Shown here in pieces: positions 4,297 through 18,896 of a DNA stretch of 64,000 nucleotides. The position numbers and the translations under genes are program-made. Every line of letters starts with the position of its first letter. Within the stretch, counting starts at the first letter, position 1. Source of the stretch: Piscinibacter sp. GTDB taxonomy: Bacteria; Pseudomonadota; Gammaproteobacteria; Burkholderiales; Burkholderiaceae_C. Under the pieces are notes generated by a model, which did no database searches, was not told the DNA's origin, and worked only from the letters and a program-made list of their open reading frames with translations. The DNA lies in the NCBI GenBank assembly GCA_019635485.1, contig JAHBZL010000002.1:1-64000 (forward strand), in the 5' to 3' direction.

Positions 4297-5448
4297 TCAG
4301 CGGGCGTCGCGCGCCACGGGCCCGAGGGCGGCGGCCTGCGCGGCGCCGCGCCGTGCCGGCACCCACAGCACGACGAGCGCCATCAGGCCGGCGGCCGCCA
4401 GCCCGCACTGCAGTCCGAGCAGCGCCGATGGCCCGACCGACGCGACGGCCCCGCCGAGCGCGAGCGCGAAAAACGCGTGACCGGCCGCGGCGCGCAGCGG
4501 CGAACTGTGCGCGCTGGCGCGCAGTGCGGGCTGGTCGAGCTGCGCCGTCCAGGCGAGGCTCCAGGCCGCGCCGTGGAACATCGCGAGCCACCACCACGCC
4601 GCACCGTCCGACAGGGCCGCGGCCGCGCCCCCGGCGGCGAGCAGCACGGCGCACGGCAGGGCCGGCGATCGAGCTCCCGCCACGGCGCGCCACACGAGCG
4701 CCGGCACGAACATCGCGCCGAGGTGCAGGCCGAGCACCGCGGGCGCGTTCAGCGAGCCGCTGCGGCACAGCGCGAGCATCTGCGGCAGGCTGCACATCAT
4801 CGGCAACATCACGAACGAGGCGAGGCCCAGCGGCCAGCGCGACGGCACGCGCCAAATCCCGGCCGGCCACGCCGGCAGCGAACAATCGAACAGCCCGGCG
4901 CGGCAGGCCGGGTGCCGCACCGGCGCCGCCGCGCTCGGCAGCAGCAGCGCCAGCGCGCCGGCGGCAGCCAGCAGCAGGGCCGCCACGCGCGGTGCCAGCG
5001 CGGCCAGGTCCGACGGGTCGCCGACGGCCGCCCACGCGATGAGCGCTCCGGTGGCGGCGGCCACGACGGGCGGCCCGGACGGCCGGGTCGACGCGAGCCG
5101 CAGCGCACGCACACCGGCCGACGCGAGGGCCACCAGCACCGACCAGGCCAGCAGGCCCGGCAGCAGCGCGGCCATCCCGCCGCCGTGCCGCACGGCGAAC
5201 AGGCTGCGGGCCGCGATCAGCGCACACGCCAAAAGCAGGACACGCGCCGCCGGCCGCGCCAGGCGCAGCCGCCCGATCAGCGCGGCCGCCGCGCCGAGCG
5301 CGAAGAGCCACGCGGCCACCAGCGCGTAGGCCGCCAGCGGCCCGGCCGCGAGGCGGTCGGCAACATGCGCGATGGTGATCCAGCCGCCCAGCAGCAGCGT
5401 CCAGGCCAGCGCGCGTGCGCCCGCCAGGCGCCAGGGGCCGGCGTCCAT
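4297..5448 (-). CDS. Unknown polytopic membrane protein at the end of the cox cluster
   Basis: 383 residues with roughly ten or eleven hydrophobic segments (for example 14-30, 38-58, 68-82, 92-112, 152-170, 206-228, 236-252, 263-280, 284-302, 322-338 and 343-363). I do not recognise the family. Noticeable are Met/Cys/His-rich membrane stretches: SFVMLPMMCSLPQM (211-224) with Cys228, LHLGAMF (241-247) and WWWLAMFHGAAW (285-296). These could be a metal or cofactor site, but that is speculation. The start at 5448 lies 7 bases after the mocA-like stop, so it is probably the last gene of the cox transcript. It could stand in for CoxK, a multi-pass protein of other cox clusters; no sequence link to CoxK can be shown here. 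Confidence 0.65.
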   Translation of the reverse strand: MDAGPWRLAGARALAWTLLLGGWITIAHVADRLAAGPLAAYALVAAWLFALGAAAALIGRLRLARPAARVLLLACALIAARSLFAVRHGGGMAALLPGLLAWSVLVALASAGVRALRLASTRPSGPPVVAAATGALIAWAAVGDPSDLAALAPRVAALLLAAAGALALLLPSAAAPVRHPACRAGLFDCSLPAWPAGIWRVPSRWPLGLASFVMLPMMCSLPQMLALCRSGSLNAPAVLGLHLGAMFVPALVWRAVAGARSPALPCAVLLAAGGAAAALSDGAAWWWLAMFHGAAWSLAWTAQLDQPALRASAHSSPLRAAAGHAFFALALGGAVASVGPSALLGLQCGLAAAGLMALVVLWVPARRGAAQAAALGPVARDAR

Positions 5449-5455
5449 GACCGTG

Positions 5456-6130
5456 TCAGGCCGGCGCGACCGCGGCGGGCCAGTGCAGCACGTGGCCGGT
5501 GCGTTCCGTGAAGCGCCGCAGGTCGTCGGCCGTGTCGATGTCGACACGGAAGCGCGTGTTGTCGGTGTCGAACCAGTGCACGCGCTCCGGATGGTCGAGG
5601 CGCCAGCGCCGGCAGGCCGCGTCGATGTCGCCGGCCAGCCATTCGTCGCGCACCGCCGCCTCGAACATCACCGGGTTGCCCGGCTCGCCGCCCACGCGCG
5701 GCACGACCATCGATGCGGTGCCGCGTTTCTTGTAGGCGCTGATCAGCGCCGTGATGTCCTGCGCGTTGACGAGCGGCTGGTCGGCCAGCGCGACGATGAC
5801 CGCGTCGAGCCGGCCGGCCAGTGCCGCTAGGCCGATGCTTACCGACGACGGCTGGCCGTCGTCCGGCGCCGGGTTGCGCACGATCGTCACGGGGAAGTCG
5901 CGCACCACCGGCTCGATCGTGTCGGCATGGTGGCCGAGCACGACGACGACCTCGTCGACACCGGCGCCGGAGAGCGCGATCAGCTGGCGCCGGATCAGCG
6001 GCACGCCGCCGAGCTCGAGCAGCGCCTTCGGCCGGTTGCCGAGCCGGCTGCCGGCGCCGGCCGCGAGCAGCACGGCGCCGACCACGAGGCGCTGGTAGAG
6101 CCCGCCACCGCCCTTCAGGATGCAGCCCAT
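5456..6130 (-). CDS. MocA-like molybdopterin cytidylyltransferase
   Basis: 224 residues of the NTP-transferase (MobA/MocA) fold. The nucleotide signature LAAGAGSRLGNRPK lies at 22-35, with Lys35 as the conserved lysine, and VALADQP (about 114-120) is the metal-binding Asp motif. Family members attach CMP (MocA) or GMP (MobA) to molybdopterin. CO dehydrogenase uses the cytosine dinucleotide form, so a CTP-using enzyme is expected here; this is inferred from context. ATG at 6130 is separated from the coxF stop by a single base (TGAGATG), so translation is probably coupled. No good ribosome site precedes it. A GTG at Val16 or Val17 is an alternative start. Confidence 0.8.
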   Translation of the reverse strand: MGCILKGGGGLYQRLVVGAVLLAAGAGSRLGNRPKALLELGGVPLIRRQLIALSGAGVDEVVVVLGHHADTIEPVVRDFPVTIVRNPAPDDGQPSSVSIGLAALAGRLDAVIVALADQPLVNAQDITALISAYKKRGTASMVVPRVGGEPGNPVMFEAAVRDEWLAGDIDAACRRWRLDHPERVHWFDTDNTRFRVDIDTADDLRRFTERTGHVLHWPAAVAPA

Positions 6131-6131
6131 C

Positions 6132-7043
6132 TCAGTGCCCGCAGCAGGAGGATGTCGCCGGCGTCAACACCGGCTCCGGCAGCGGCAGGCCCGACACCGG
6201 CGCGGCGGCCGCTTCCGGCGTGGCCACTGGTTCGGGCCCCGGCCCGGGCGCCGCGCCGCGCCGGTGCGAGACCACCGCGGCCAGCACCGAGAGCGCGATC
6301 TCCTCGGGCGTGCTCGCCGCCATCGGGTAGCCCGCCGGCGCGACGATGGCATCGACCGCGGCGGCATCGGCGCCGGCCGCGACCAGCGCGTCCTTCAGCA
6401 CCTGCGCCTTCTTCGCACTCGCGACGAAGGAGACCTGGCGTGCCTGCAGCGCCAGCGCGAGGCGCAGCGCCTGCACGTCGCGCCGGCCCTGCGTCGCGAC
6501 GACGACCCAGGCGCCGGCCGCGATCAATGCGCCAGCAGCCGCGATGTCGTCGTTCGCGATCACGCGCTGCGCATCCGGGTAGGCCGCCGCCACGGCCTCG
6601 TGCGCCACCAGCGTGACGCCGAAGCCGACGCGCGGTGCCAGCTGCACCAGGCTGGACGCCACCGGCGAGGCGCCGATCACCACCAGCTGCGCGCGCGGCA
6701 GCACCGGGTCGACGAACAGCTCCAGCGTGCCGCCGGAGTGGCAGCTCATGCCGAACTCGAGCACGTCGTCGAGCTGCTTCTCGTGGCCTTCCGCGGCCGG
6801 CGCGATGCGGATCAGCCGGGCCCGGCCGTCGGCAAGGGCCTGGCGCACGGTGCGCAGCACGGCCGGCTGGGCGCAGCCGCCGCCGACCCAGCCGTGCAGC
6901 TGGCCGTCGGCGGTGACCACGGCCTTGTCGCCGGGCCGCGCCGACGCCGGCGCGAGCGCGCGCACGACGCTCACCAGCGCGTAGGGCGCACCGGCCTGCT
7001 GCAGGCGGGTCGCGGCGGCGAAGACGGTGTCGACGGTGGACAT
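6132..7043 (-). CDS. coxF: CoxF / XdhC-family cofactor maturation protein
   Basis: 303 residues of the XdhC/CoxF family. The N-terminal XdhC_CoxI domain includes GQLHGWVGGGCAQP (about 46-59). A Rossmann-like C-terminal domain starts near LVVIGASPVASSL. The tail ends SSCCGH, a vicinal Cys pair. XdhC-type proteins bind the molybdenum cofactor and help insert a terminal sulfur before handing it to the apo-enzyme. In carboxidotrophs CoxF is required to complete the Mo-S-Cu centre. The gene sits between coxE and the mocA-like gene, in the order seen in other cox operons. A repeat element separates it from coxE. Confidence 0.85.
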   Translation of the reverse strand: MSTVDTVFAAATRLQQAGAPYALVSVVRALAPASARPGDKAVVTADGQLHGWVGGGCAQPAVLRTVRQALADGRARLIRIAPAAEGHEKQLDDVLEFGMSCHSGGTLELFVDPVLPRAQLVVIGASPVASSLVQLAPRVGFGVTLVAHEAVAAAYPDAQRVIANDDIAAAGALIAAGAWVVVATQGRRDVQALRLALALQARQVSFVASAKKAQVLKDALVAAGADAAAVDAIVAPAGYPMAASTPEEIALSVLAAVVSHRRGAAPGPGPEPVATPEAAAAPVSGLPLPEPVLTPATSSCCGH

Positions 7044-7055
7044 GTCAGTACCTCC

Positions 7056-7117
7056 CGGCCGTTCCGAAGGGACCGAACGCCCCGCTGGGGGGCAGCGAAC
7101 GGAGTGCGCGTGGGGGT
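7056..7117. repeat. GC-rich double-hairpin intergenic element, copy A
   Basis: It lies between coxE and coxF. The architecture is that of the other copies: a CCCCC block, a GCGC arm with TTCG, then C/G runs folding back on each other (CCCCGCTGGGG at 7080-7090) and a second TTCG hairpin (GTTCCGAAGGGACC, 7061-7074). It is the most diverged copy. It opens a 25-codon reading frame on the minus strand that I regard as spurious. Confidence 0.45.
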
Positions 7118-7133
7118 TTCATGGCAGTCTCCT

Positions 7134-8300
7134 TCAGTGCAGGCGATCCGCCAGCGCGGCGAGATCGGCCAGGCTGTTCAGGCGCTGGAACGATTCGACG
7201 AGGCCCGGCTGCGCCGCGACGCCGGCCAGCGCCTGCGAGGCGGCCGGCCGCTGGGACGGGTGGAACCAGGTGATCTGCGCGCCGCGCCCGCGCACGCGTG
7301 CCAGCTCCTCGGCCAGACGCGGCGGCTCGTCGGCATCGAAGCCATCCGACAGGATCCAGACCCGTGCCCGGCGCGTCAGCTGCGCGCGCGCGTGCACGGC
7401 ACGGAAGTCGGCCAGGCTGGTGGCGATGCGGGTGCCGCCGCCGAATCCGGCGGTGACCGCGTTGACCTTCTCCTGCACCGCGACCGAGTCGCTGCGCAGC
7501 AGCGGGGTCACCTCGGCCAGCCGGGTGTGGAAGACGAACACGCGTGCCTCCAGCGCCGCGACAAAGGCCCGCGCGATGCGCAGGAACAGCTGCGCATGCG
7601 TTTCCATCGAGCGGCTGACGTCGACCAGGATGAACAGGCGCGGCCGTTCGCGCTGCGGCAGGCGCCAGGCCGGGTGCAGCGGCAGCCCGCCGGTGCGCAG
7701 GCTGGCGCGCAGGGTGCGGCGCACGTCGAGGCGACGGCCCCGTGGCGCGGCCCGCCAGCGGCGCGTCAGGCGGCGGCGCAGGCGCCGCGCGATGCGTTCG
7801 GCCAGGCGCTCGAGCAGCGCCAGGTCCTGCGGCAGCCACTGCGCCAGCGAGCGGTCGTGCAGCGCATCGGTGCGGCTGGCGCCGCCCTGCGCGCGCGGCA
7901 GGCCCGCGTCGTCGGCCCCCGCCGCAGCGGCCGGCGCCTGCAGCGCGGTGTCGGCCGGTGTACCGCGTGGCTGGCCCGGTGCCATGCTGTCGTGCAGGCT
8001 GCGCACCAGTTGCTGCAGCGACCGGCTCGGCCGCGTCTGTCCCGAGACGCGCGTGCTGCCGCGCACGCGCTGCGGATACCAGTAGCGCTCGAACAGCTCG
8101 GGCCAGCGCCGCCAGTCGCGCGCGTCGTGGCATGCGATCGCGCGCCAGGCCGGTCCGAGCGCCGCGCAGCGTTCGACCGGCACCCGCAGCGCGGCCTGCA
8201 CCATGGCCTGCTGTTCGGGGATGCCGACGCTCAGGCCGTGCTCGCGCAGCAGCAGCGCGAAGCCGGCGATGCTTTCCAGGGGTCGTGCGCCGGCGTTCAT
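7134..8300 (-). CDS. coxE: CoxE, von Willebrand factor A domain protein
   Basis: 388 residues. The C-terminal VWA domain (from about residue 215) contains the metal-adhesion motif DVSRSM, then GGGTRIATSL (the MIDAS threonine region) and WILSDGFD. An Arg-rich region precedes it. CoxE partners the AAA ATPase CoxD, by analogy with other MoxR-VWA pairs, in building the Mo-Cu centre of CO dehydrogenase. ATG at 8300 overlaps the coxD stop by four bases, a strong sign of coupled translation, and is preferred to the longer open frame. An Ala/Gly-rich segment near 120-140 looks like a flexible linker. Confidence 0.88.
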   Translation of the reverse strand: MNAGARPLESIAGFALLLREHGLSVGIPEQQAMVQAALRVPVERCAALGPAWRAIACHDARDWRRWPELFERYWYPQRVRGSTRVSGQTRPSRSLQQLVRSLHDSMAPGQPRGTPADTALQAPAAAAGADDAGLPRAQGGASRTDALHDRSLAQWLPQDLALLERLAERIARRLRRRLTRRWRAAPRGRRLDVRRTLRASLRTGGLPLHPAWRLPQRERPRLFILVDVSRSMETHAQLFLRIARAFVAALEARVFVFHTRLAEVTPLLRSDSVAVQEKVNAVTAGFGGGTRIATSLADFRAVHARAQLTRRARVWILSDGFDADEPPRLAEELARVRGRGAQITWFHPSQRPAASQALAGVAAQPGLVESFQRLNSLADLAALADRLH

Positions 8301-9190
8301 GCCTTCTCCGCCACGCCGACGCTGCGGCGGCCCTCGATTAGCTGGCGCACCCGCTCGGGGCCGATCTGGAAGCGGTCCTCGCGTGTCTTCAGCAGGCAGG
8401 CGAGCGTGCCGGCCAGGGCCTGGGCATCCTCGGGCAGCGCGCGGTGCTCGAGGCGGTGCAGCGCGCGCACCCAGTCCAGGCTCTCGGCGATGCCCGGCTT
8501 CTTGCCCAGGTCCTCGCGGCGCAGCCGCTGCACGAAGGCGACCGCCTGCTCGACCAGCGCACCCTCGGCCTGCGGCAGCGTGGCGCGCACGATGGCGATC
8601 TCGCGCGCCAGCGTCGGATAGTCGAGCCAGTGGTAGAGGCAGCGCCGGCGCAGCGCGTCGGACAGCTCGCGCGTGCCGTTGCTGGTCAGCACGACCTGCG
8701 GGACGTGGGTGGCGCGCAGCGTGCCCAGTTCGGGCACCGTGATCTGGTAATCGGCCAGCACCTCGAGCAGGAAGGCCTCGAAGGCCTCGTCGGCGCGGTC
8801 GATCTCGTCGATCAGCAGCACGCAGGGCGCGTCGCTGGCGATCGCCTGCAGCAGCGGGCGCTCCAACAGGTAGTCGCGCGCGAACAGGTCGGTCTCGCGC
8901 AGCTTGTTGCCGCCGGTTTCGCTCAGGCGGATCGCGAGCAGCTGGCGGCCGTAGTTCCATTCGTAGGCCGCCTGGGCCAGGTCGAGGCCTTCGTGGCACT
9001 GCAGGCGCACCAGCCGGCGCCCCCACGCGTGCGCGAGCGCGGCGGCCAGCGCGGTCTTGCCGACACCCGCATCGCCTTCCACGAGCAGCGGCCGCTGCAG
9101 CTCGCCGGCCAGCCACAGCGTGGTCGCCAGCGCCTCGTCGGCGATGTAGCCGGCGCGGTGCAGGGCTTCGCGCAGCGCGGGCTCTTCCAT
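8297..9190 (-). CDS. coxD: CoxD, MoxR-type AAA+ ATPase
   Basis: 297 residues. The Walker A motif GDAGVGKTALA lies near 38-48, Walker B VLLIDEID near 125-132, and sensor-1 is LTSNGTREL. In Oligotropha, CoxD is the chaperone-like ATPase needed to sulfurate the molybdenum during maturation of CO dehydrogenase. The frame is open 20 codons further, but that start would overlap coxG. ATG at 9190 leaves an 8-base gap and begins MEEPALREALHRAGY, as relatives do. The gene overlaps coxE by 4 bp. Confidence 0.9.
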   Translation of the reverse strand: MEEPALREALHRAGYIADEALATTLWLAGELQRPLLVEGDAGVGKTALAAALAHAWGRRLVRLQCHEGLDLAQAAYEWNYGRQLLAIRLSETGGNKLRETDLFARDYLLERPLLQAIASDAPCVLLIDEIDRADEAFEAFLLEVLADYQITVPELGTLRATHVPQVVLTSNGTRELSDALRRRCLYHWLDYPTLAREIAIVRATLPQAEGALVEQAVAFVQRLRREDLGKKPGIAESLDWVRALHRLEHRALPEDAQALAGTLACLLKTREDRFQIGPERVRQLIEGRRSVGVAEKA

Positions 9191-9198
9191 CGCGGCTT

Positions 9199-9783
9199 TC
9201 AGGCGCGATTGCCGAACAGGCCGGCGAACCAGCCCTTGATCAGGTTCCACACGATCGCCAGGCCGTTGATCTCCTTCGCGACCTGAGGTGCCGGCACGGG
9301 CGGTGCGGCTGCCGCCTCCGGCCCGGGCAGCGCGGCCGCCGCGGTGCGGAAGTTGTCGACGAACTGGGCCAGCAGCATGTCCGACACCTGCGTCATCATG
9401 CGGCCGCCGAACTGCGCGAACTTGCCGTTCACCACCACGGCAGCGTTGCCCACCAGCACCGAGCCGGCCGGCGTCTCGCCCGCCTCGACGGTGGCCGTCA
9501 GGTCCATCGAGGCCGACGAGCCGCCACGGTCGGCGCCCTTGCCGAACAGCTGCAGCGTGCGCGCCGCCTCGTCGAGCTGCTTCACCTCGATGTCGCCGCC
9601 GAAGGCCGCGTTGGCCGGGCCGACCTTGACCTTCACCGTGCCCTTGTAGTGCGTGGCATCGACCTGCTCGGTGATCTCGGCACCGGGCATGCAGCCGGCC
9701 ACGACCTTCACGTCGCGCAGGACCTGCCAGGCCCTCGCCGCGTCTACCTCGAGCGGATACCGCTTCTCCAGTTTGACTTCCAT
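9199..9783 (-). CDS. coxG: CoxG, SRPBCC-family membrane-recruitment protein
   Basis: 194 residues. Residues 1-150 form the SRPBCC/polyketide-cyclase-like domain: MEVKLEKRYPLEVDAARAW, GCMPGAE, GKFAQFGGRMM. An Ala/Pro linker follows, then a hydrophobic amphipathic C-terminus (LAIVWNLIKGWFAGLFG). This matches the family role of anchoring CO dehydrogenase to the cytoplasmic membrane. Here coxG lies directly after coxL rather than after coxDEF. ATG at 9783 lies 78 bases downstream of the coxL stop, across a repeat element. Confidence 0.9.
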   Translation of the reverse strand: MEVKLEKRYPLEVDAARAWQVLRDVKVVAGCMPGAEITEQVDATHYKGTVKVKVGPANAAFGGDIEVKQLDEAARTLQLFGKGADRGGSSASMDLTATVEAGETPAGSVLVGNAAVVVNGKFAQFGGRMMTQVSDMLLAQFVDNFRTAAAALPGPEAAAAPPVPAPQVAKEINGLAIVWNLIKGWFAGLFGNRA

Positions 9784-9791
9784 TGAACTAG

Positions 9792-9830
9792 GCCCCCGAG
9801 ACGCCTGCGGCGTCGGCCCCCCGCGGGGGC
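9792..9830. repeat. GC-rich double-hairpin intergenic element, copy B
   Basis: Between coxL and coxG. The first hairpin is GACGCC-TGC-GGCGTC (9800-9814), followed by a run of C then G around CCCCCGCGGGGG (9818-9829). The same two-hairpin plan occurs at the coxS-coxL, gltL-gltK, fadA-fadB and nadK-recN junctions. In the transcript it would fold into two adjacent stem-loops between the large subunit and the accessory genes. Confidence 0.6.
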
Positions 9831-9861
9831 GTGTCCGAATTGGGGTGGCCCGGCGTCGGAC

Positions 9862-12258
9862 TCACAGCGCCACCCCGCTTTCCTTGAGCTGTTTCCACAC
9901 ACGATACGCCGAGTGCGGCATCACCATGTGCTTCACCCCGAGGTGGGCGAAGGCATCCACCACCGCGGCGGTGAAGGTCGGGATCGAGCCGACGTGCGGC
10001 GACTCGGCCACGCCCTTGGCGCCGATCGGGTGGTGCGGGCTCGGCGTCACGGTGTGGTCGGTCTCCCACTTCGGCGTCTCGACGGCGGTGGGCAGGAAGT
10101 AGTCCATCAGCGTGTTGCCCAGCAGGTTGCCCTGCGCGTCGAACGGCATCTGCTGGCCCATCGCGACCGCGTAGCCCTCGGTCAGGCCGCCGTGGATCTG
10201 GCCTTCGATGATCATCGGGTTGATGCGCGTGCCGCAGTCGTCCAGCGCGTAGAAGCGGCGCACCTTCGTCTCGCCGGTGGCGCGGTCGATGTCGACCACG
10301 CACAGGTAGATGCCGAACGGGTAGGTGAAGTTCGGCGGGTCGTAGTAGTGCACCGCCTCGAGACCCGGCTCCAGCCCGGGCGGCGCCTGGTGGTAGGCGG
10401 CCCAGCAGACGTCCTTCATGGTCTTGAAGCGGCTGTCGTCGCCCTTGACCTTGAAGCGGTCGATCTCCCAGTCGAGGTCGCCCTCGCCGACCTCCAGCAG
10501 GTGGGCGGCGATCTTGCGCGCCTTCGCGTGGATCTTGCGCGCGGCGAGTGCGATCGCCGCGCCGGCCACCGGCGTCGAGCGGCTGCCGTAGGTACCGAGG
10601 CCGTAGGGCGCGGTGCTGGTGTCGCCCTCCTCGACCTGGATCACCTCGCTGGGGATGCCGAGCTCGGTGGCGATGATCTGCGCGTAGGTCGTCTGGTGGC
10701 CCTGGCCCTGCGTGATGGTGCCCATGCGCGCGATCGCGCTGCCGGTCGGGTGCACGCGGATCTCGCAGGAATCGAACATGCCGACGCCGAGGATGTCGCA
10801 CATCTTGCTCGGCCCGGCACCGACCACCTCGGTGAAGCTGACCAGGCCGATGCCCATCAGCGTCGGGCTGTTCGGGTCGGCGCGCTTCTTCGCCTGCTCG
10901 GCGCGCAGGCCCTTGTAGTCGCAGGCGTCGAGCACCTTCTGCAGCGCGGCGTGGTAGTCGCCCGAGTCGTACTCGAAGCCGAACGGGCTGTGGTAGGGGA
11001 ACTGCTCCTTGCGGATGAAATTCTTCGCCCGGATCTCGGCCTTGTCGATGCCGAGCTGCTGGGCCAGGATGTCCACCATGCGCTCGATGATGTAGACGGC
11101 CTCGGTGACGCGGAACGAACAACGGTACGCGACGCCGCCCGGCGCCTTGTTCGTGTAGACGCCCTTGACGCGGCACCACGCCGCCGGGATGTCGTAGGAA
11201 CCCGAGCAGATGTGGAACAGGCCGGCCGGGTACTTGGTCGGGTCGGCGCAGGCGTCGAAGGCGCCGTGGTCGGCGATCACATCCACGCGCAGGCCGAGGA
11301 TCTTCCCGTCCTTCGTCGCCGCCAGTTCGCCGTCCATGTGGTAGTCGCGGGCGAAGGCCGTGGTCGAGATGTTCTCGATGCGGTCCTCGATCCACTTGAC
11401 CGGCTTGCCGAGCACGATCGAGGCGACGATCGCGCAGACGTAGCCCGGGTAGACGCCGACCTTGTTGCCGAAGCCGCCGCCGATGTCCGGGCTGACGATG
11501 CGGATCTTCGACTCCGGCAGGCCTGACAGCAGCGAGACCACCGTGCGCACCACGTGCGGCGCCTGCGAGGTCATGTACGTGGTCAGCTCGCCGCGCACCG
11601 GGTCGAAGGAGGCGACGCAGCCGCAGGTCTCCAGCGGGCAGGGGTGCACGCGCGGATAGAAGATGCGCTCCTTCACCGTCACCGGCGCGCCGGCGAACGC
11701 CGCGTCGGCGGCCGCCTTGTCGCCCGCCTCCCAGGTGAAGATGTGGTTGTGATGCTCCCGCGGGCCGTGTGCACCTTCGGTCTTGCCGGCCAGGTCCTCG
11801 CGCAGCACCGGCGCGCCCGCCTCGAGCGCCGCGTAGGGGTCGATCACGACCGGGAGTTCCTCGTACTCCACCTGCACCGCCTCGACGCCATCGGCCGCCG
11901 CGTAGCGGTCCTCGGCGATCACGACGGCGACCTCCTGCATCTGGAAGTGCACCTTGCCGTCGGCCAGCACCGCCGCCACGTCGCCGGCCAGCGTGGGCAT
12001 CCAGTGCAGCTTGAGCGGCTTCAGGTCCTCGGCGGTCAGCACCGCGATCACGCCGGGCACCTTGAGCGCCTCGGTCTTGTCGAGCTTCGTGATGCGCGCG
12101 TGGGCGAGCGGGCTGCGCACGATGTCCATGTGCAGCATGCCGGGCAGCTTGACGTCGTCGACGTAGTGGCCCTTGCCCTGGATGAAGCGCGCGTCCTCCT
12201 TGCGCAGGCGGCTGTCGCCCAGGCCCTGCAGCGCGGCGAGTCTTTCCGGTGCGTTCAT
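9862..12258 (-). CDS. coxL: Carbon monoxide dehydrogenase large subunit, form I
   Basis: 798 residues, close to the usual length of about 800 for CoxL. This molybdopterin subunit oxidises CO to CO2 at a Mo-S-Cu centre. The diagnostic loop is AYRCSFR (residues 377-383, bases 11110-11130), with Cys380 as the copper ligand; this defines form I, while form II enzymes have AYRGAGR. Other cofactor motifs are GGGFGNK (260-266), QGQGHQTTYAQ and GAKGVAES with the active-site Glu752. It is cytoplasmic and forms the (LMS)2 complex. It follows coxS across a repeat, with ATG at 12258. The high agreement with form I enzymes makes a generic xanthine-dehydrogenase reading unlikely. Confidence 0.96.
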   Translation of the reverse strand: MNAPERLAALQGLGDSRLRKEDARFIQGKGHYVDDVKLPGMLHMDIVRSPLAHARITKLDKTEALKVPGVIAVLTAEDLKPLKLHWMPTLAGDVAAVLADGKVHFQMQEVAVVIAEDRYAAADGVEAVQVEYEELPVVIDPYAALEAGAPVLREDLAGKTEGAHGPREHHNHIFTWEAGDKAAADAAFAGAPVTVKERIFYPRVHPCPLETCGCVASFDPVRGELTTYMTSQAPHVVRTVVSLLSGLPESKIRIVSPDIGGGFGNKVGVYPGYVCAIVASIVLGKPVKWIEDRIENISTTAFARDYHMDGELAATKDGKILGLRVDVIADHGAFDACADPTKYPAGLFHICSGSYDIPAAWCRVKGVYTNKAPGGVAYRCSFRVTEAVYIIERMVDILAQQLGIDKAEIRAKNFIRKEQFPYHSPFGFEYDSGDYHAALQKVLDACDYKGLRAEQAKKRADPNSPTLMGIGLVSFTEVVGAGPSKMCDILGVGMFDSCEIRVHPTGSAIARMGTITQGQGHQTTYAQIIATELGIPSEVIQVEEGDTSTAPYGLGTYGSRSTPVAGAAIALAARKIHAKARKIAAHLLEVGEGDLDWEIDRFKVKGDDSRFKTMKDVCWAAYHQAPPGLEPGLEAVHYYDPPNFTYPFGIYLCVVDIDRATGETKVRRFYALDDCGTRINPMIIEGQIHGGLTEGYAVAMGQQMPFDAQGNLLGNTLMDYFLPTAVETPKWETDHTVTPSPHHPIGAKGVAESPHVGSIPTFTAAVVDAFAHLGVKHMVMPHSAYRVWKQLKESGVAL

Positions 12259-12262
12259 TGGA

Positions 12263-12297
12263 CCCCCTTGGCGCTTTGCGCCGTCCCCCCGAGGGGG
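12263..12297. repeat. GC-rich double-hairpin intergenic element, copy C
   Basis: It lies in the 67-base gap between coxS and coxL. GGCGC-TTT-GCGCC (12270-12282) is followed by a CCCCC / GGGGG stem (12285-12297). Its position between two subunit genes of one complex makes a full terminator unlikely. A role in mRNA processing or in setting subunit ratios is possible but unproven. Confidence 0.6.
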
Positions 12298-12325
12298 AAT
12301 TCGCCCTTGAAGCGGTTCTGCGAGC

Positions 12326-12817
<492 letters not shown>

Positions 12818-12828
12818 CCGACGCCTCC

Positions 12829-13689
12829 CTACTGGCAGCGCGCCGCCGCCTGGCGGAGCGCGCGTTGCACCATCTGGCCGGCCATCGCGAGCTTGTACTC
12901 GCGGTCGCCGCGCAGGTCCTCGGCGGGGTCGCAGGCCGCCACCGCCTTGGCCGCCGCGGCGGCGATCGCCGCGTCGTCGAGCGGCCGGCCGAGCAGCGCC
13001 GCCTCGGCGTCCTTCGCCCGCAGCGCCGCCGGCGCGAGGTTGGTCAGCGCGATGCGCACATGGCTCACCTTGCCACCATCCAGGCGCAGCACGACGGCGG
13101 CGGCGGCGGTGGCCCAGTCACCGGTCTTGCGCTTGAGCTTGGCGTAGGCGTGGCCGGTCTTCGGGGCGAAGGCCGCCGCGCGGATCTCGGTCAGCACCTC
13201 GTCCTCGGCCATCGCCGTCATGTAGGTGCCCTGGAAGAAGCCGTCGGCGGCGACCGAGCGGCTTCCTTGCGGGCCTTCCAGCGTGAAGGTGGCGTCCAGC
13301 GCCAGCGCGATCGCCGGGTGATCGTTGCCGGGGTCGCCATGCGCGATGTCACCGCCGATCGTGCCGCGGTTGCGCACCTGCGGGTCGGCGATCTGCCTCG
13401 CGGCCTCCGGCAGCAGCGGCAGCTTCGCCTGCAGCAGCGGCGAGGCGATCAGGTCGTTCTCGACCGTCATCGCGCCGATCACGACCGTGCCGCCTTCCTC
13501 GCGGATGCCGCGCAGCGCGTCGATGCGGTTCAGGTCGATCAGGTTGGCCGGCTGGGCGAAGCGCAGCTTCATCATCGGCAGCAGGCTGTGGCCGCCGGCC
13601 AGCAGCTTGGCATCGGGCAGGCTGCCGAGCAGCCGGACGGCTTCCGCCACCGAACGGGGCGCGTGATAGTCGAATCCGGGCGGGATCAT
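12829..13689 (-). CDS. coxM: Carbon monoxide dehydrogenase medium (FAD) subunit
   Basis: 286 residues, like CoxM of other carboxidotrophs (about 288). FAD-binding motifs are AGGHS (31-35) and TIGGD (110-114), both within one residue of the Oligotropha positions. It passes electrons from the [2Fe-2S] clusters towards the quinone pool. ATG at 13689 is preceded by AGGAG at good spacing; an upstream in-frame start at 13776 would run through the putative operator and was rejected. It is the first gene of the structural operon, about 190 bases downstream of rcoM. Confidence 0.95.
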
Positions 13690-13776
13690 CGTGGGCGTCT
13701 CCTGGAGGGCACCGGTCGGGTGCGCCGGCTTGCCGGGCGCAAAGGTAGGGGCGCGCGCGGCGCCTCGACAGGCCAC

Positions 13777-13805
13777 TGCACGAACCCCCCGCCGCCATGC
13801 ACGAA
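13777..13805 (-). promoter_or_regulatory. Putative RcoM operator: direct repeat with 21-bp period
   Basis: The 8-mer TTCGTGCA occurs twice on the minus strand, at 13805-13798 and 13784-13777, exactly 21 bp apart (two helical turns). LytTR-domain regulators typically bind direct repeats spaced about this way, and both copies fit the TTnnnG element that I recall being reported for RcoM. A weaker third half-match (CTCATGGG) lies a further 21 bp upstream. The site is 88-116 bases before the coxM start, suitable for an activator. Binding is inferred. Confidence 0.6.
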
Positions 13806-13848
13806 ATGCAGGGTGCCCCCCATGAGCGGCGCCGACCCGGGTGCCGAG

Positions 13849-13862
13849 CCGGGTTTACCCGG
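13849..13862 (-). terminator. Hairpin just downstream of rcoM
   Basis: CCGGGTTTACCCGG forms a short stem (CCGGG/CCCGG) 17 bases after the rcoM stop. It has no T run on the minus strand, so it is at best a weak terminator separating rcoM from coxM. It could instead be part of the coxM leader. Confidence 0.3.
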
Positions 13863-13879
13863 AGGAGGAACAGGACGCC

Positions 13880-14635
13880 TCAGCGCGCCCCGTCGGACTC
13901 CGCGATGCCCAGCCGCGCGAGCAGCGCCGGCACGGTGGTGCGCGCCACCGGCAGCGTGCTGTTCTCGCCGCGCAGCTTGAGGCTGACCTTGCCGTCGTCG
14001 CGCACGATCTGCTCGGCAAATTCGAGGTTGGCGAGGTAGCTGCGGTGCACGCGCATGAACGAGGCCCCGTCCAGGCGCTCGGCCAGGTCGGTGATGTTCA
14101 GGTTGCAGAAGCTCGACCCGCGCGCGGTGCTGACCCAGGTGTAGTGGCCCTCCGCGCGCACGTAGGTGACCTCTTCGGCGTCGACCAGCACGATGCGGTT
14201 CTGCGAGATGGTCGGGATCTTCTGCAGCTGGCGCTTGGTGGCCGGCTTGTGCGCTGCCGGATCGTCGCGCGACACGACGTCGGTGATGTCGTAGAAGATC
14301 AGCGTGTAGCCGGTCGTCTCGCCGCGCCGGTCCGACAGCTTGGTCACCTTGATCAGCAGCACCCGCTCCGGGATGTTGATGATCATCGTCATCGGCGGCG
14401 GGTTGCTGACCGGGCACTCGGCCTGGTCGAGCAGGAAGCGGACCTTCGGCACCGAGCGCTCCGGGTGGAACGACAGCACCATCTTCTCGAACGGCTGCTT
14501 GTCCTCCACCGGCAGCGCACGGCGAGCGAAGCTGTTCATCGCGACGACGGTCAGCTCGCGGTCGAGTTGCACCACGCCGACGTCGGAGCGCTCGAGCAGG
14601 TACAGCGGATTGGCGGAGGAACTGCGCGTGTCCAC
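13880..14635 (-). CDS. rcoM: RcoM-type haem PAS-LytTR transcription activator (CO sensor)
   Basis: 251 residues. The N-terminal PAS domain covers about 10-120 and the C-terminal LytTR DNA-binding domain about 145-245 (VTYVRAEGHYTWV ... MRVHRSYLANL). The segment FHPERSVPKVRFLL followed by CPVSNPPPMTMIINIPERVLLIKV closely resembles Burkholderia xenovorans RcoM. His57 aligns with its proximal haem ligand His74, and Cys74 and Met84 align with the exchangeable ligands Cys94 and Met104. The expected role is to bind CO at haem and activate coxM. There is no transmembrane part, unlike the CoxC/CoxH sensors. The start is GTG at 14635, without a strong ribosome site. It is encoded just upstream of coxM on the same strand. 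Confidence 0.88.
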   Translation of the reverse strand: MDTRSSSANPLYLLERSDVGVVQLDRELTVVAMNSFARRALPVEDKQPFEKMVLSFHPERSVPKVRFLLDQAECPVSNPPPMTMIINIPERVLLIKVTKLSDRRGETTGYTLIFYDITDVVSRDDPAAHKPATKRQLQKIPTISQNRIVLVDAEEVTYVRAEGHYTWVSTARGSSFCNLNITDLAERLDGASFMRVHRSYLANLEFAEQIVRDDGKVSLKLRGENSTLPVARTTVPALLARLGIAESDGAR

Positions 14636-14680
14636 GGCCCCGATTCAAGCACCGAATGCCGGGACGCGCGCTGAGGGGTC

Positions 14681-14697
14681 TCCCTCTTCCAGAGGGA
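14681..14697 (-). terminator. Hairpin between the peroxiredoxin gene and rcoM
   Basis: TCCCTCT-TCC-AGAGGGA, a 7-bp stem with a 3-base loop, in the 118-base gap after the peroxiredoxin gene. No T run follows on the minus strand. It may end the peroxiredoxin transcript. The rest of the gap (14700-14753) is GC-rich with a repeated GGTCCGGCGCCG (14717-14728 and 14741-14752). Confidence 0.35.
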
Positions 14698-14753
14698 TCG
14701 GTTGGCTGCCGCGGGGTCCGGCGCCGCCGCCGGCGGGCAGGGTCCGGCGCCGT

Positions 14754-15416
14754 TCAGCCTTTCGGCGGCGGCACGATGCGCAGGTAGGGCCGCGGCGCCT
14801 TCCAGCCGCCGGGCCAGAGTTTCCGCGCGTCGTCGTCGGACACCGAGCCGGCGATGATCACGTCCTCGCCCGGTTTCCAGTTCACCGGCGTGGCCACCTT
14901 GTGCCGGGCGGTCAGCTGCATCGAGTCGAGCGCGCGCAGGATCTCGTCGAAGTTGCGCCCGGTGGTCATCGGGTAGGTCATCATCAGCTTGATGCGCTTG
15001 TCCGGGCCGATCACGAACACCGAGCGCACGGTCGCGTTGGTCGCCGCGGTGCGGCCCTGCGCCGTGCCCGGCTCCTCCGCCGGCAGCATGTTGTAGAGCT
15101 TGGCCACCTTCAGGTCGTGGTCGCCGATCATCGGGTAGTTCGGCGCGTGGCCCTGGGTCTCCTCGATGTCCCGGGCCCAGCGCTGATGGTCATCGACCGC
15201 GTCGATGCTCAACCCGATCAGCTTGGTGTTGCGCTTGCGGAACTCGGGCTCGATGCGGGCCATGTAGCCCAGCTCGGTGGTGCACACCGGCGTGAAGTCC
15301 TTGGGGTGGGAGAACAGGATCGCCCAGCTGTCGCCGATCCATGGGTGGAACTGGATCGGCCCCTGGGTGGTCTGCGCGCTGAAGTCCGGCGCGACGTCAT
15401 TGATGCGGAGGGACAT
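14754..15416 (-). CDS. 1-Cys peroxiredoxin (Prx6 family)
   Basis: 220 residues. It reduces peroxides in the cytosol. The peroxidatic Cys45 sits in HPKDFTPVCTTE (37-48), the Prx6-type signature. The length and the long C-terminal domain (YPMTTGRNFDEILR ... VNWKPGEDVII) fit the 1-Cys class rather than the shorter AhpC/2-Cys type. No second conserved Cys is seen. It lies between rcoM and gltL, with 82 bases to the latter. It may simply be a stand-alone antioxidant gene. ATG at 15416 follows GAGGAG. Confidence 0.92.
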   Translation of the reverse strand: MSLRINDVAPDFSAQTTQGPIQFHPWIGDSWAILFSHPKDFTPVCTTELGYMARIEPEFRKRNTKLIGLSIDAVDDHQRWARDIEETQGHAPNYPMIGDHDLKVAKLYNMLPAEEPGTAQGRTAATNATVRSVFVIGPDKRIKLMMTYPMTTGRNFDEILRALDSMQLTARHKVATPVNWKPGEDVIIAGSVSDDDARKLWPGGWKAPRPYLRIVPPPKG

Positions 15417-15498
15417 GTCGGCTCCTCGTCAGGGGGAGAAACCAACTCTAGTCGCCCGGCTCCGCAGGCTTCAAGCGGGAATTCGCGTCCGGGGCGGA

Positions 15499-16233
15499 TC
15501 AGTGCTGCAGGATCTTCGAGAGGAACTCCTTGGCGCGCGGCGAACGTGCCTCCGGGTTGCCGAAGAAGTCGTCCTTGCGGCAGTCCTCGACGATCTTGCC
15601 GGCGTCCATGAAGATCACCCGGTGGCTGACCTTCTTCGCGAAGCCCATCTCGTGGGTGACGCACATCATCGTCATGCCCTCGTTGGCCAGCTGCACCATC
15701 ACGTCCAGCACCTCGCCGACCATCTCGGGGTCGAGCGCGGAGGTCGGCTCGTCGAACAGCATGACGATCGGGTCCATCGACAGCGCGCGCGCGATTGCGA
15801 CGCGCTGCTGCTGGCCGCCGGAGAGCTGGCCGGGGAACTTGTCCTTGTGCGCCATCAGGCCGACCCGATCGAGCATCTTCAGACCTCGCGTCTTCGACTC
15901 GTCGGGCTTGCGGCCGAGCACCTTCACCTGCGCGAGCGTGAGGTTCTCGGTCACGGTCAGGTGCGGGAACAGCTCGAAGTGCTGGAACACCATGCCGACC
16001 CGGCTGCGCAGCTTGGGCAGGTTGGTCTTCGGATCGGCGATGCTGACGCCGTCGACCACGATGTCGCCCTTCTGGAACGGCTCCAGCGCATTGACTGTCT
16101 TGATCAGCGTGGATTTGCCGGAGCCCGACGGGCCGCACACCACCACGACCTCGCCCTTCTGGATGCTGGTCGTGCAGTCGGTCAGGACCTGGAAGCTGCC
16201 GTACCACTTGCTGACGTTTTTGATGTCGATCAC
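15499..16233 (-). CDS. gltL: Glutamate/aspartate ABC importer, ATPase
   Basis: 244 residues. Walker [10 protein letters not shown] (about 34-42), the ABC signature LSGGQQQR and Walker [15 protein letters not shown] are all present, as in polar amino-acid importers. The start is GTG at 16233, six bases after AGGAG and giving the family N-terminus [12 protein letters not shown]; the 16 upstream codons were rejected. It is the last gene of gltI-gltJ-gltK-gltL and is separated from gltK by a repeat element. Confidence 0.93.
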
Positions 16234-16251
16234 GCTGCACTCCTGGTTATC

Positions 16252-16308
16252 GCGCCGCCCTGCGGCGCCGGGCCGCCCCAAGCCGCAGGGCGGCCCCCTC
16301 GGGGGGCG
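16252..16308. repeat. GC-rich double-hairpin intergenic element, copy D
   Basis: Between gltL and gltK. A 13-bp perfect inverted repeat (16254-16266 against 16282-16294) encloses 15 bases, and a C-run/G-run stem (16294-16306) follows. The plan is like the copies in the cox and fad operons but with a longer first stem. Confidence 0.6.
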
Positions 16309-16338
16309 GACACGTAACCCGTGGCCGGGGGCTGACGT

Positions 16339-17007
16339 TCATCGGATGATCTGGATCTTCTGCTGCAGCCGGCGCACCAGCATCGACAGCGAGAAGCAGA
16401 TGACGAAATAGACGACCGCGGCGACCAGGTAGGTCTCCACCGGCCGGTTGAAGTTCTTGCCGGCCACCTCGAAGCCCTTCAGCAGGTCGTAGGCACCGAT
16501 CGCGTAGACCAGCGAGGTGTCCTGGAACAGGATGATGGTCTGGGTCAGCAGCACCGGCAGCATGTTGCGGAAGGCTTGCGGCAGCACGATCAGCTGCATG
16601 CACTGGGCATAGGTCATGCCCACCGCGTAGCCGGCGTAGACCTGCCCCTTGGGCACGCTCTGGATGCCGGCGCGCATGATCTCGGAGTAGTAGGCCGCCT
16701 CGAACACCGTGAAGGTGATGATGGCCGACAGCTCCGCCCCCATCGGCCGCCCGATCAGCAACGGGATCAGCAGGAAGAACCACAGGATCACCATCACCAG
16801 CGGGATCGAGCGCAGCGTGTTGACGTACGCCGCCGCCGGCAGCACCAGCCACTTCTTGCCCGACAGCCGCATCAGCGCCAGCACGGTGCCCAGCGCAATG
16901 CCGCCCAGCATCGCGACGATCGTCAGCTGGATCGAGAAGAAGAAGCCCTTGAGGACGAACCCGGAGACGACGCCCCAGTTCAGGAAGCCGAAGTCGAGGC
17001 CGCTCAT
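16339..17007 (-). CDS. gltK: Glutamate/aspartate ABC importer, permease
   Basis: 222-residue inner-membrane permease of the HisM/GltK type with about five membrane spans. It begins MSGLDFGFLNWGVVSGFVLKGFFFS and carries the permease-ATPase coupling loop (EIMRAGIQSVPKGQVYAG, around 120). It works with GltJ and GltL to bring acidic amino acids in from the periplasmic protein GltI. It starts 34 bases after the gltJ stop. Confidence 0.92.
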   Translation of the reverse strand: MSGLDFGFLNWGVVSGFVLKGFFFSIQLTIVAMLGGIALGTVLALMRLSGKKWLVLPAAAYVNTLRSIPLVMVILWFFLLIPLLIGRPMGAELSAIITFTVFEAAYYSEIMRAGIQSVPKGQVYAGYAVGMTYAQCMQLIVLPQAFRNMLPVLLTQTIILFQDTSLVYAIGAYDLLKGFEVAGKNFNRPVETYLVAAVVYFVICFSLSMLVRRLQQKIQIIR

Positions 17008-17041
17008 GGACGGCCTCCTTCGGTGGGGGTTTGCAGATGCC

Positions 17042-17746
17042 TCACTTGCCGCCTCCGATCATCCCGGGCACCGCGACGCGGTGCTCGATCAGCAGCGCGA
17101 CGCGGTTGATCGCGAACGCGGAGACGAAGTACAGGCCGGTGACGGCGAGGTAGATCTCGATGCCGCGCGAGGTCTCCTCCTGCGCCTGCATCGCGAACAT
17201 CGTCAGCTCGGCGATGCTGACCGCGAACGCCACCGAGGAGTTCTTGACGATGTTCATCGACTCGCTCGTCAGCGGCGGGATGACGATGCGGAAGGCCATC
17301 GGCAGCAGCACGTAGCGGTAGGTCTGCGGCAGCGTCAGGCCCATCGCCAGACCGGCGTAGCGCTGGCCCTTGGGCAGCGCCTGGATGCCCGCCTTGACCT
17401 GCTCCGCGATGCGTGCCGAGGTGAAGAATCCCAGCGCGAACACCACCAGCACGAAGCTGGGCACCTGCCGCAGCGACGTGAAGATCGACGGGATCACGTG
17501 ATACCAGAGGAAGATCTGCACCAGCAGGGGGACGTTGCGGAACAGTTCGGTCCAGGCATTGCCCAGCAGCACCAGCCACTTGTTCGGCGTGGTGCGCAGG
17601 ATGCCCATCAGCGAGCCGACGACCAGCGCCACCGCCAGCGAGCACAGCGCCACCGAGAGCGTCCAGCCCCAGGCGGACATCATCCACTGCAGGTAGGTTT
17701 CCCCTCCGCCGGTGTCCTGCAGGAACACCTGCCAGTCCCATGTCAT
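17042..17746 (-). CDS. gltJ: Glutamate/aspartate ABC importer, permease
   Basis: 234-residue membrane permease paired with GltK. It has about five membrane spans. The coupling loop reads AEQVKAGIQALPKGQRYAG (about 133-151). The N-terminus MTWDWQVFLQDTGGGETYLQWM matches the GltJ family, which has an extended first periplasmic loop. It lies 150 bases downstream of gltI. That gap holds a GC-rich stretch but no clear terminator, which allows gltI to be expressed at a higher level than the permeases. Confidence 0.92.
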   Translation of the reverse strand: MTWDWQVFLQDTGGGETYLQWMMSAWGWTLSVALCSLAVALVVGSLMGILRTTPNKWLVLLGNAWTELFRNVPLLVQIFLWYHVIPSIFTSLRQVPSFVLVVFALGFFTSARIAEQVKAGIQALPKGQRYAGLAMGLTLPQTYRYVLLPMAFRIVIPPLTSESMNIVKNSSVAFAVSIAELTMFAMQAQEETSRGIEIYLAVTGLYFVSAFAINRVALLIEHRVAVPGMIGGGK

Positions 17747-17896
17747 GGCGCCGCCTCCTGCGCACTTTCGTTTGTCGTAAAAGGGACGAGCGCGACGCGG
17801 GGTTACCGTCGCCGCGCTCGCGCAGCATAAGCAAGCCCCGCGCCTGCGGCCTCAGGGCTTACGTGGGTGGACGGCCGGGCCGCCCGCAACCCACGG

Positions 17897-18796
17897 TCAC
17901 TTCTTGGCGTAGTCTTCCATCGGCTTGTCGTTCGGGCTCGCCCAGGCCGCCTTGGTGGCTTCCGACAGCGGCAGGCCGACCTTGGTGTTGGCCGGCGGGA
18001 TCGGCTGCATGAACCACTTGTCGTAGGTCTTGGCCAGGTCGCCGCTCTTGATCTGCGCGATGATGGAATCGTCCACCGCCTTCTTGAAGGCCGGGTCGTC
18101 CTTGCGCATCATGATCGCGATCGGCTCGACCGACAGCACCTCGCCGACGATCTTGTAGTCGGCCGGATTCTTCGAGCGGCTGATGTTGCCGGCCAGGATC
18201 TGGCCGTCCATCACGAAGGCGTCGGCGCGGCCCGACTCCAGCAGCAGGAAGCTGTCGGCGTGGTCCTTGCCGAACACTTCCTTGAAGTCGACGCCGGTGG
18301 CACGCTCGTGCTTGCGCAGCGTCTGCACCGAGGTCGTGCCGGTGGTCGTCGCGACGGTCCTGCCGTTCAGGTCCTTGATCGAGTTGACGCCCGAGTTCGC
18401 CTTGGTGGCGATGCGCACTTCCTCGACGTAGGTGGTCACGGCGAAGGCGACGTCCTTCTGGCGGGTCGCGTTGTTGGTCGTCGAGCCGCATTCGATGTCG
18501 ACGGTGCCGTTCTGCACGAGCGGGATGCGGTTCTGCGAGGTGACCGGCTGGTACTTGATCTCCAGCTTGGCCAGGCCGAGCTGCTTCTGGATGTCGGCCA
18601 GCACCTTGGTGCAGACCTCGGTGTGGAAGCCGGCGTACTTGCCGTCGCCGAGGGTGTAGGCCAGCGCACCGGAGGACTCGCGCACGCCCATCGTGACCGA
18701 ACCGCTGTCCTTGATCTTCTTCAGCGTGTCGGCCTGGACCGCGCCCGCGGCAAGCGCCGCGGCAAGCGCGACCACGTTGAGCAAAGCCTTCTTCAT
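17897..18796 (-). CDS. gltI: Glutamate/aspartate periplasmic binding protein
   Basis: 299 residues. The signal peptide covers about 1-22 (MKKALLNVVALAAALAAGAVQA, cut before DTLKK). The solute-binding family-3 fold follows (GSVTMGVRESSGALAYTLGDGKYAGFHTEVC ... IPLVQNGTVDIECGSTTNN). It captures glutamate or aspartate in the periplasm for GltJKL. ATG at 18796 is preferred to a GTG six bases upstream because AGGAG lies 5 bases before the ATG. It is the promoter-proximal gene of the importer; aspA lies 100 bases further upstream on the same strand. Confidence 0.93.
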   Translation of the reverse strand: MKKALLNVVALAAALAAGAVQADTLKKIKDSGSVTMGVRESSGALAYTLGDGKYAGFHTEVCTKVLADIQKQLGLAKLEIKYQPVTSQNRIPLVQNGTVDIECGSTTNNATRQKDVAFAVTTYVEEVRIATKANSGVNSIKDLNGRTVATTTGTTSVQTLRKHERATGVDFKEVFGKDHADSFLLLESGRADAFVMDGQILAGNISRSKNPADYKIVGEVLSVEPIAIMMRKDDPAFKKAVDDSIIAQIKSGDLAKTYDKWFMQPIPPANTKVGLPLSEATKAAWASPNDKPMEDYAKK

Positions 18797-18896
18797 GTGC
18801 ACTCCTGCAGGGGTTGAGAATTGGGAAACGGGATTCTAGGGAGGCGGTTGTGCGGGTTCACCCGGGGGTCCCGGGCGTTCACCGCGGGTGCATCTT

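Follow-up and report, generated by a model that had tools for sequence, protein, structure and literature searches.

How is copper supplied to a molybdenum-copper carbon monoxide (CO) dehydrogenase? This question is raised by a locus in a 64,000-nucleotide stretch of Piscinibacter sp. DNA (assembly GCA_019635485.1, contig JAHBZL010000002.1, positions 1 to 64,000; the whole stretch is termed the window in the following), in which the regulator gene rcoM and the genes coxM-S-L-G-D-E-F-mocA occupy positions 14635-5456 of the minus strand and are followed, after a gap of 7 nt, by a membrane protein gene, here termed mem5 (5448-4297). In Oligotropha, the products of coxD, coxE and coxF mature the [CuSMoO2] site, and coxE or coxF mutants yield a copper-free enzyme; a model of 2014, inferred from sequence, lets CoxF draw copper from phytate, and the finding of the missing CO dehydrogenase maturation factors was called a future challenge (PMC4240915; this and all other papers are cited for portions of their text). 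We regard the locus as probably a CO-inducible operon for respiratory CO oxidation that has its own copper supply through mem5. Somewhat less firmly, we favor the view that mem5 founds a branch of copper importers of the major facilitator superfamily (MFS) for Mo-Cu CO dehydrogenase: It would provide the missing first step of copper supply, would be made only when CO is sensed, and can accompany clusters in which no coxF lies between coxE and mocA (L025, L030, L033, L035).

Fold and putative copper site of mem5

CcoA imports copper for the cbb3 oxidase, for which it strictly depends on Met233 and His261; of Met237 and Met265, one is required, and Cys247 is important (PMC8406296). In mem5, Met214, Met218, Cys228, His242 and Met246 correspond to CcoA M233, M237, C247, H261 and M265, each with a position number lower by 19. 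The AlphaFold model of mem5 (predicted local distance difference test score, pLDDT, 84.9; predicted template modeling score, pTM, 0.86) comprises twelve helices by manual grouping, with MxxxM placed in helix 7 and HxxxM in helix 8. A Foldseek search with this model gave 57 PDB matches at E ≤0.001 (best E 1.5e-5), mostly MFS carriers, the match being a loose one (template modeling scores of 0.46-0.65 among the 50 matches listed). Based on the model, mem5 has an MFS-like fold with twelve helices. In sequence searches, mem5 matched nothing in NCBIfam at E 0.001 (query with its start at an upstream GTG) and nothing in the plasmid collection; a DUF2182-like metal protein, the first guess for mem5, was ruled out as there was no such Pfam match.

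Among 14 mem5 proteins with a mean column identity of 39% (including nine of the eleven other family members; G036 and G296, which differ in spacing, were left out), 15 columns were invariant and the five putative copper residues were among them; in nine widely divergent members, seven columns were invariant, again with all five included. The residues persist in members 21-39% identical to that of L185. The conservation in divergent members is partly circular, since some of them were found by the motif. The exact spacing M3M23H3M occurred 42 times in 10,206 open reading frames (ORFs) of 139 partly overlapping loci; all 42 ORFs possess the Cys and, by reading, all are mem5-like or CalT-like.

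In comparisons of the mem5 profile with that of CalT, the probability was 8.9% when few sequences were used and rose with deeper profiles; the global comparison reached 74% (E 3.3e-6 for a single comparison), mostly from the motif. The local score of 39.6 compares with a maximum of 18.8 among 30 column shuffles and with 12.5 when the profile was reversed, and control comparisons of mem5 gave E 0.89 for the window's own MFS carrier and E 0.93 for an ABC permease. Canonical CalT was present at E 1e-60 in 30 of 40 family genomes, with the five residues kept in all 30 extracted sequences. In 13 Limnohabitans-type loci (L060, L061, L065, L066, L070, L073-L075, L078, L080-L082, L086), a canonical CalT gene is located about 3 kb upstream of rcoM near the cox cluster, which may be lineage synteny. 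As judged from the shared residues, mem5 likely works like a CalT.

Linkage of mem5 to CO dehydrogenase gene clusters

As the genome searches scored just 6, 3 and 5 first-look candidates in each genome, members may have been missed in the following counts. Of the 299 family genomes, 12 were matched by a ten-row mem5 profile at E ≤1e-8, and 29 of the 299 contain a form I CoxL over the cut-off (G074 adds a fragment). The mem5 gene was found on the CoxL contig, on the same strand and downstream, in eleven of the twelve matches; in the twelfth (G209), a 6.1-kb contig holds it next to mocA, coxF, coxE and coxD. Run against 369 genomes of the class, a mem5 profile retrieved only the gene of the window itself and, from another family, one canonical CalT (E 8.1e-7).

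For the 19 form I genomes without a mem5 match, the downstream side was fetched; six were cut or uninformative and 13 informative. In six of the latter (L175, L176, L179, L184, L185, L187), the motif recurs in a divergent ORF, which comes directly after mocA in L175 and behind an oxygenase gene in the other five; four of these six are recovered by the mem5 profile (E 1.5e-4 to 1.2e-29). In total, a mem5-type gene was present in 18 of 25 informative form I clusters (12 matches and six divergent members). A relaxed-pattern match in L190, one of the remaining seven, was due to chance; a crude hydropathy count, which undercounts known members, revealed no same-strand, motif-free membrane protein at the corresponding position in six of the seven, and L190 has an ORF with eight hydrophobic stretches about 770 nt further on. 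Of the 25 rcoM loci in which the sequence extends for 1500 nt or more beyond mocA, 14 contained a motif ORF, and in L030 mem5 is present but carries a deletion.

Several of these clusters differ in the genes next to mocA. A gene for a 2-oxoglutarate-Fe(II) oxygenase-like protein of 230-240 amino acids, absent from the window, directly follows mocA in L043, L048, L049, L051, L053-L057, L062, L064, L066, L067, L070 and L072, and precedes the mem5-like gene where the latter was seen; the identity of the product was tested for L049 and L072 (PF13759; L049 also TIGR02466), the other loci being judged by sequence. In the form I clusters L025, L030, L031, L033, L035 and L044, coxE is directly followed by mocA with no coxF between; mem5 is present in L025, L030, L033 and L035 (with a frame break in L035). 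L033 contains a coxF-like ORF upstream of rcoM, and coxF copies elsewhere in these genomes are possible.

A role in copper import has to be weighed against the simpler assumption that the locus is an ordinary RcoM-controlled form I operon in which mem5 serves otherwise, e.g. as membrane anchor or carrier of another solute, with the Met-Cys-His pattern as a relic or structural feature. Three points speak for such a role: The predicted transport of copper is deduced from the sequence, the similarity of mem5 to CalT is slight outside the motif, and mem5 is missing from seven of the 25 informative form I clusters. It also counts against the import of copper that mem5 has no match in Pfam even at E 5. 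When the five residues are masked, the local score drops from 39.6 to 22.4 and the global one from 33.0 to 1.8; as the likeness thus lies mostly in the copper site, descent and convergence are not separated. In addition, one canonical CalT is encoded elsewhere in the genome; the motif spacing varies (one extra residue in G036 and L043, four in G296, a 6-residue deletion in L030); the divergent members of L175 and L176 are assigned by motif and location only; and ten of the 25 rcoM loci (seven of them Variovorax-type) also lack mem5, which in consequence is not needed everywhere. However, the five residues are found among only 15 invariant columns, they persist in distant members (with the circularity mentioned above), and they are spaced in the window's protein just as in CcoA; another role of mem5 is therefore considered unlikely.

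It appears more unlikely still that mem5 handles copper for a different client, such as a haem-copper oxidase on which the respiration of CO depends, or that it exports the metal. Such a client would have a precedent, since CcoA supplies a cytochrome oxidase (PMC8406296, PMC6362234); against it stands that all twelve family matches sit in cox clusters (oxidase genes nearby were not searched for) and that the operon's own enzyme needs copper.

Proposed function of the operon

According to the favored reading of mem5 as importer, RcoM would carry its haem on His57, with Met84 being displaced by CO and Cys74 acting as ligand in the oxidized form; the regulator would then bind the repeats upstream of coxM and switch on the genes from coxM through mem5. 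CoxMSL would be made with the molybdopterin cytosine dinucleotide (MCD) cofactor provided by MocA, sulfurated by CoxD and loaded with Cu(I) by CoxE and CoxF, for which mem5 would carry Cu(I) into the cytoplasm. The electrons would pass to quinone (CoxG) and, together with ribulose-1,5-bisphosphate carboxylase/oxygenase (RuBisCO), the pathway may support growth on CO. As a source of copper, a carrier that has a Cu(I) site, is encoded by the cox operon itself and is induced by CO would be simpler than the phytate route.

The authors of the CalT study leave open whether family members feed cuproproteins beyond the cbb3 oxidase (PMC6362234). Where a cox operon includes a carrier with the copper motif of CcoA, two questions meet, the copper source of CO dehydrogenase and the clients of CalT; such a carrier may also matter for moving cox genes to other hosts. 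In the open literature (subscription literature was outside the scope), nothing was found that links CcoA or a copper importer to CO dehydrogenase, nor, as judged by titles, MFS copper carriers to coxL.

Organization of the locus

All genes of the locus are encoded on the minus strand; the features are:

13880-14635, minus strand: rcoM, one-component regulator with PAS and LytTR domains, 251 amino acids, GTG start (Pfam PAS_4 and LytTR; His57, Cys74, Met84)
13777-13826, minus strand: candidate RcoM operator, three direct repeats in 21-bp steps (13798-13805 and 13777-13784 = TTCGTGCA; 13819-13826 weak, 3 mismatches)
12829-13689, minus strand: coxM, flavin adenine dinucleotide (FAD) subunit, 286 amino acids, ATG start taken at 13689 (PF00941 and PF03450; AGGHS at 31, TIGG at 110)
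12326-12817, minus strand: coxS, subunit with two [2Fe-2S] clusters, 163 amino acids (PF00111 and PF01799; eight cluster Cys)
9862-12258, minus strand: coxL, form I Mo-Cu subunit, 798 amino acids (TIGR02416; C380, Q232, E752)
9199-9783, minus strand: coxG, 194 amino acids (PF06240)
8297-9190, minus strand: coxD, AAA+ ATPase, start taken at ATG 9190 (AAA_5; spacing)
7134-8300, minus strand: coxE, VWA protein, 388 amino acids (PF05762)
6132-7043, minus strand: coxF, XdhC family, 303 amino acids (XdhC domains PF02625 and PF13478)
5456-6130, minus strand: mocA-like cytidylyltransferase gene for the MCD cofactor, 224 amino acids (PF12804; TIGR03310 119 bits, under the cut-off of 186)
4297-5448, minus strand: mem5, MFS-like membrane protein of 383 amino acids, proposed Cu(I) importer (CcoA motif M214xxxM218-C228-H242xxxM246)

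The intergenic gaps amount to 11 (coxM-coxS), 67 (coxS-coxL), 78 (coxL-coxG), 8 (coxG-coxD), -4 (coxD-coxE), 90 (coxE-coxF) and 1 nt (coxF-mocA), and rcoM is co-directional with coxM at a distance of 190 nt. The preliminary description, made from the letters of the DNA, had presented positions 5456-14635 as a complete CO dehydrogenase locus: The genes named there, including coxG, coxD, coxE, coxF and the mocA-like gene, are indeed all present, in one direction and with short gaps; the completeness does not hold, since mem5 follows mocA. Less favorable to a single CO-inducible transcription unit that extends into mem5 are a scan for promoters and terminators, which found none (no sigma-70-like promoter in 13600-14800), the lack of a clear ribosome-binding site of mem5, and the weakness of the third repeat, better triplets being present in several relatives. 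An ORF at 4230-3199, by eye dihydroorotase-like, is next in the same direction, 66 nt beyond mem5. Upstream of rcoM, positions 14754-18802 of the same strand encode a peroxiredoxin and, by eye, an amino-acid ATP-binding cassette (ABC) transporter set; the two Piscinibacter loci likewise have the ABC ATPase gene immediately ahead of rcoM.

Regulator and operator repeats

The window regulator combines PAS and LytTR in one chain without a transmembrane domain by Pfam. Its relatives were gathered by regulator similarity alone (best 80 of 125 loci), and 83 sequences (80 loci, two plasmids and the window) were aligned. The predicted haem ligands were kept almost throughout (His57 in 82 of 83, L050 being cut before this position; Cys74 and Met84 in 83 of 83). 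The gene coxM lies downstream of rcoM on the same strand in all 79 loci with a sufficiently long contig (the contig of L028 ends within 250 nt), the gap being less than 0.75 kb except for L026 and L069 (1.0 kb) and L027 (4.6 kb); the gap of L027 contains repeated TTCCGGCA. The two plasmid loci differ in that opposite strands encode rcoM and coxM.

According to the literature, RcoM recognizes a repeat, TTCNNGCA, present in three copies 12-13 bp apart (PMC11347149); for RcoM of Paraburkholderia xenovorans, the repeats follow in steps of 20-21 bp (PMC9670170, PMC11347149). Upstream of coxM, the window possesses two perfect copies of TTCNNGCA 21 bp apart; on the two strands of the 64-kb window, the sequence has a background of 27 and 31 copies. 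The pair TTCRTGCA-N12-13-TTCRTGCA occurs a single time in the 5,003,100-base assembly (reversed control: 0). At least one exact TTCNNGCA was found in 71 of 80 rcoM-coxM intervals (79 loci and the window), and a TTCRTGCA triplet with up to 5 mismatches in 67 of 80 versus 0 of 800 Markov shuffles, a test that is partly circular because TTCRTGCA was read from these same promoters. A search for weaker RcoM sites elsewhere in the genome was discarded: at up to 3 mismatches it gave 225 matches versus 79 in the reversed control, which are individually uninterpretable.

These data bear on the possibility that the regulator is a PAS-LytTR protein for a signal other than CO. Its identity with the cox-linked homologue of P. 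aromaticivorans is only 34.7%, it has no match among PDB sequences at E 0.001, and its His-Cys spacing is 17 instead of the 20 of the cox-linked homologue on Paraburkholderia plasmid pBN2, the Cys-Met spacing being 10 in both. The spacings of the pBN2 homologue equal those of the RcoM haem ligands at residues 74, 94 and 104 (Met104). Nevertheless, with the aligned and conserved His, Cys and Met, the upstream repeats that match those of RcoM and the linkage to coxM in every testable locus, a different signal is highly improbable; the preliminary assignment as RcoM-type sensor with three predicted haem ligands is thus supported.

In trees of the regulator and CoxL (46 of the 83 loci), the regulators of L025, L030, L031, L033, L034 and L035 nest with that of the window (22-row clade; Shimodaira-Hasegawa-like approximate likelihood ratio test, SH-aLRT, 96), and the CoxL proteins of the same six loci fall outside a 39-row clade that includes even the Paraburkholderia forms, with an uncertain CoxL root. 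Enzyme genes may have been exchanged under one sensor lineage in these loci, or the sensor may have moved.

CO dehydrogenase

The sequence signatures reported earlier for the three subunits were all recovered: the AYRCSFR loop with Cys380 in CoxL, the FAD motifs AGGHS and TIGG in CoxM, and the eight cluster cysteines of CoxS (42, 47, 50, 62 and 101, 104, 136, 138), which has further Cys at 33 and 69. CoxL scored 1542.6 bits against the form I equivalog TIGR02416 (cut-off 991.15) and aligned without gaps over 796 residues to CutL of Hydrogenophaga pseudoflava (PDB 1ffu; 1641 bits). At the positions of the active-site residues Cys388 (the copper ligand), Gln240 and Glu763 of the Oligotropha enzyme (1n5w), it has Cys380, Gln232 and Glu752. 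In the CoxL tree (with two form II rows added), the window groups with the Piscinibacter CoxL; the form II branches are very long (4-10) and the root is poorly fixed, so that the form I assignment rests on the TIGR02416 model and the residues, not on the tree. The assignment of the window enzyme as form I Mo-Cu CO dehydrogenase is supported by these features.

The assembly encodes a second CoxL homologue, which is form II-like (AYRGAGR, 476 bits; G000:C34:22155-24398, L136). It also contains a RuBisCO large subunit (G000:C3, L137), with CbbS, CbbX and CbbR as neighbors by eye, and NiFe hydrogenases; this combination (G000:C3, G000:C12:120782-139242, G000:C27) points to H2- and CO-fed autotrophy. 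Because of RuBisCO and the hydrogenases, growth on CO, beyond mere survival, is plausible.

Comparison with known systems

With respect to the regulator, RcoM of Paraburkholderia xenovorans likewise consists of PAS and LytTR domains with His, Cys and Met ligands (PMC9670170, PMC11347149), and the Paraburkholderia homologue differs in its His-Cys loop, 20 residues long compared with 17 in the window. The cox genes of Afipia carboxidovorans are likewise controlled by a LytTR protein, CoxC, and three repeats occur there too; in contrast to the PAS sensor of the window, CoxC is a repressor with a membrane-bound MHYT sensor (PMC11347149). On the Paraburkholderia plasmid pBN2, the genes rcoM and coxM diverge and are separated by an OmpW family gene (L089 7916-8527).

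With respect to mem5, CcoA/CalT shares the twelve-helix MFS architecture, MxxxM in helix 7, HxxxM in helix 8 and the Cys between (PMC6362234, PMC8406296), and the spacing of the copper residues is identical in the window's protein; there is little similarity elsewhere, and mem5 has no MFS_1 match and sits in cox operons. As to the operon, form I coxL clusters with coxGDEF, rcoM and mocA were described in 2025 for two CO-consuming isolates, Cupriavidus ulmosensis CV2 and Paraburkholderia terrae COX, with no transporter gene named in these portions of the text (PMC11771112). Without mem5, the locus of the window, i.e. rcoM, a form I cox cluster and mocA, is already known in kind; the importer-like extra gene mem5 is what it adds to this kind of operon.

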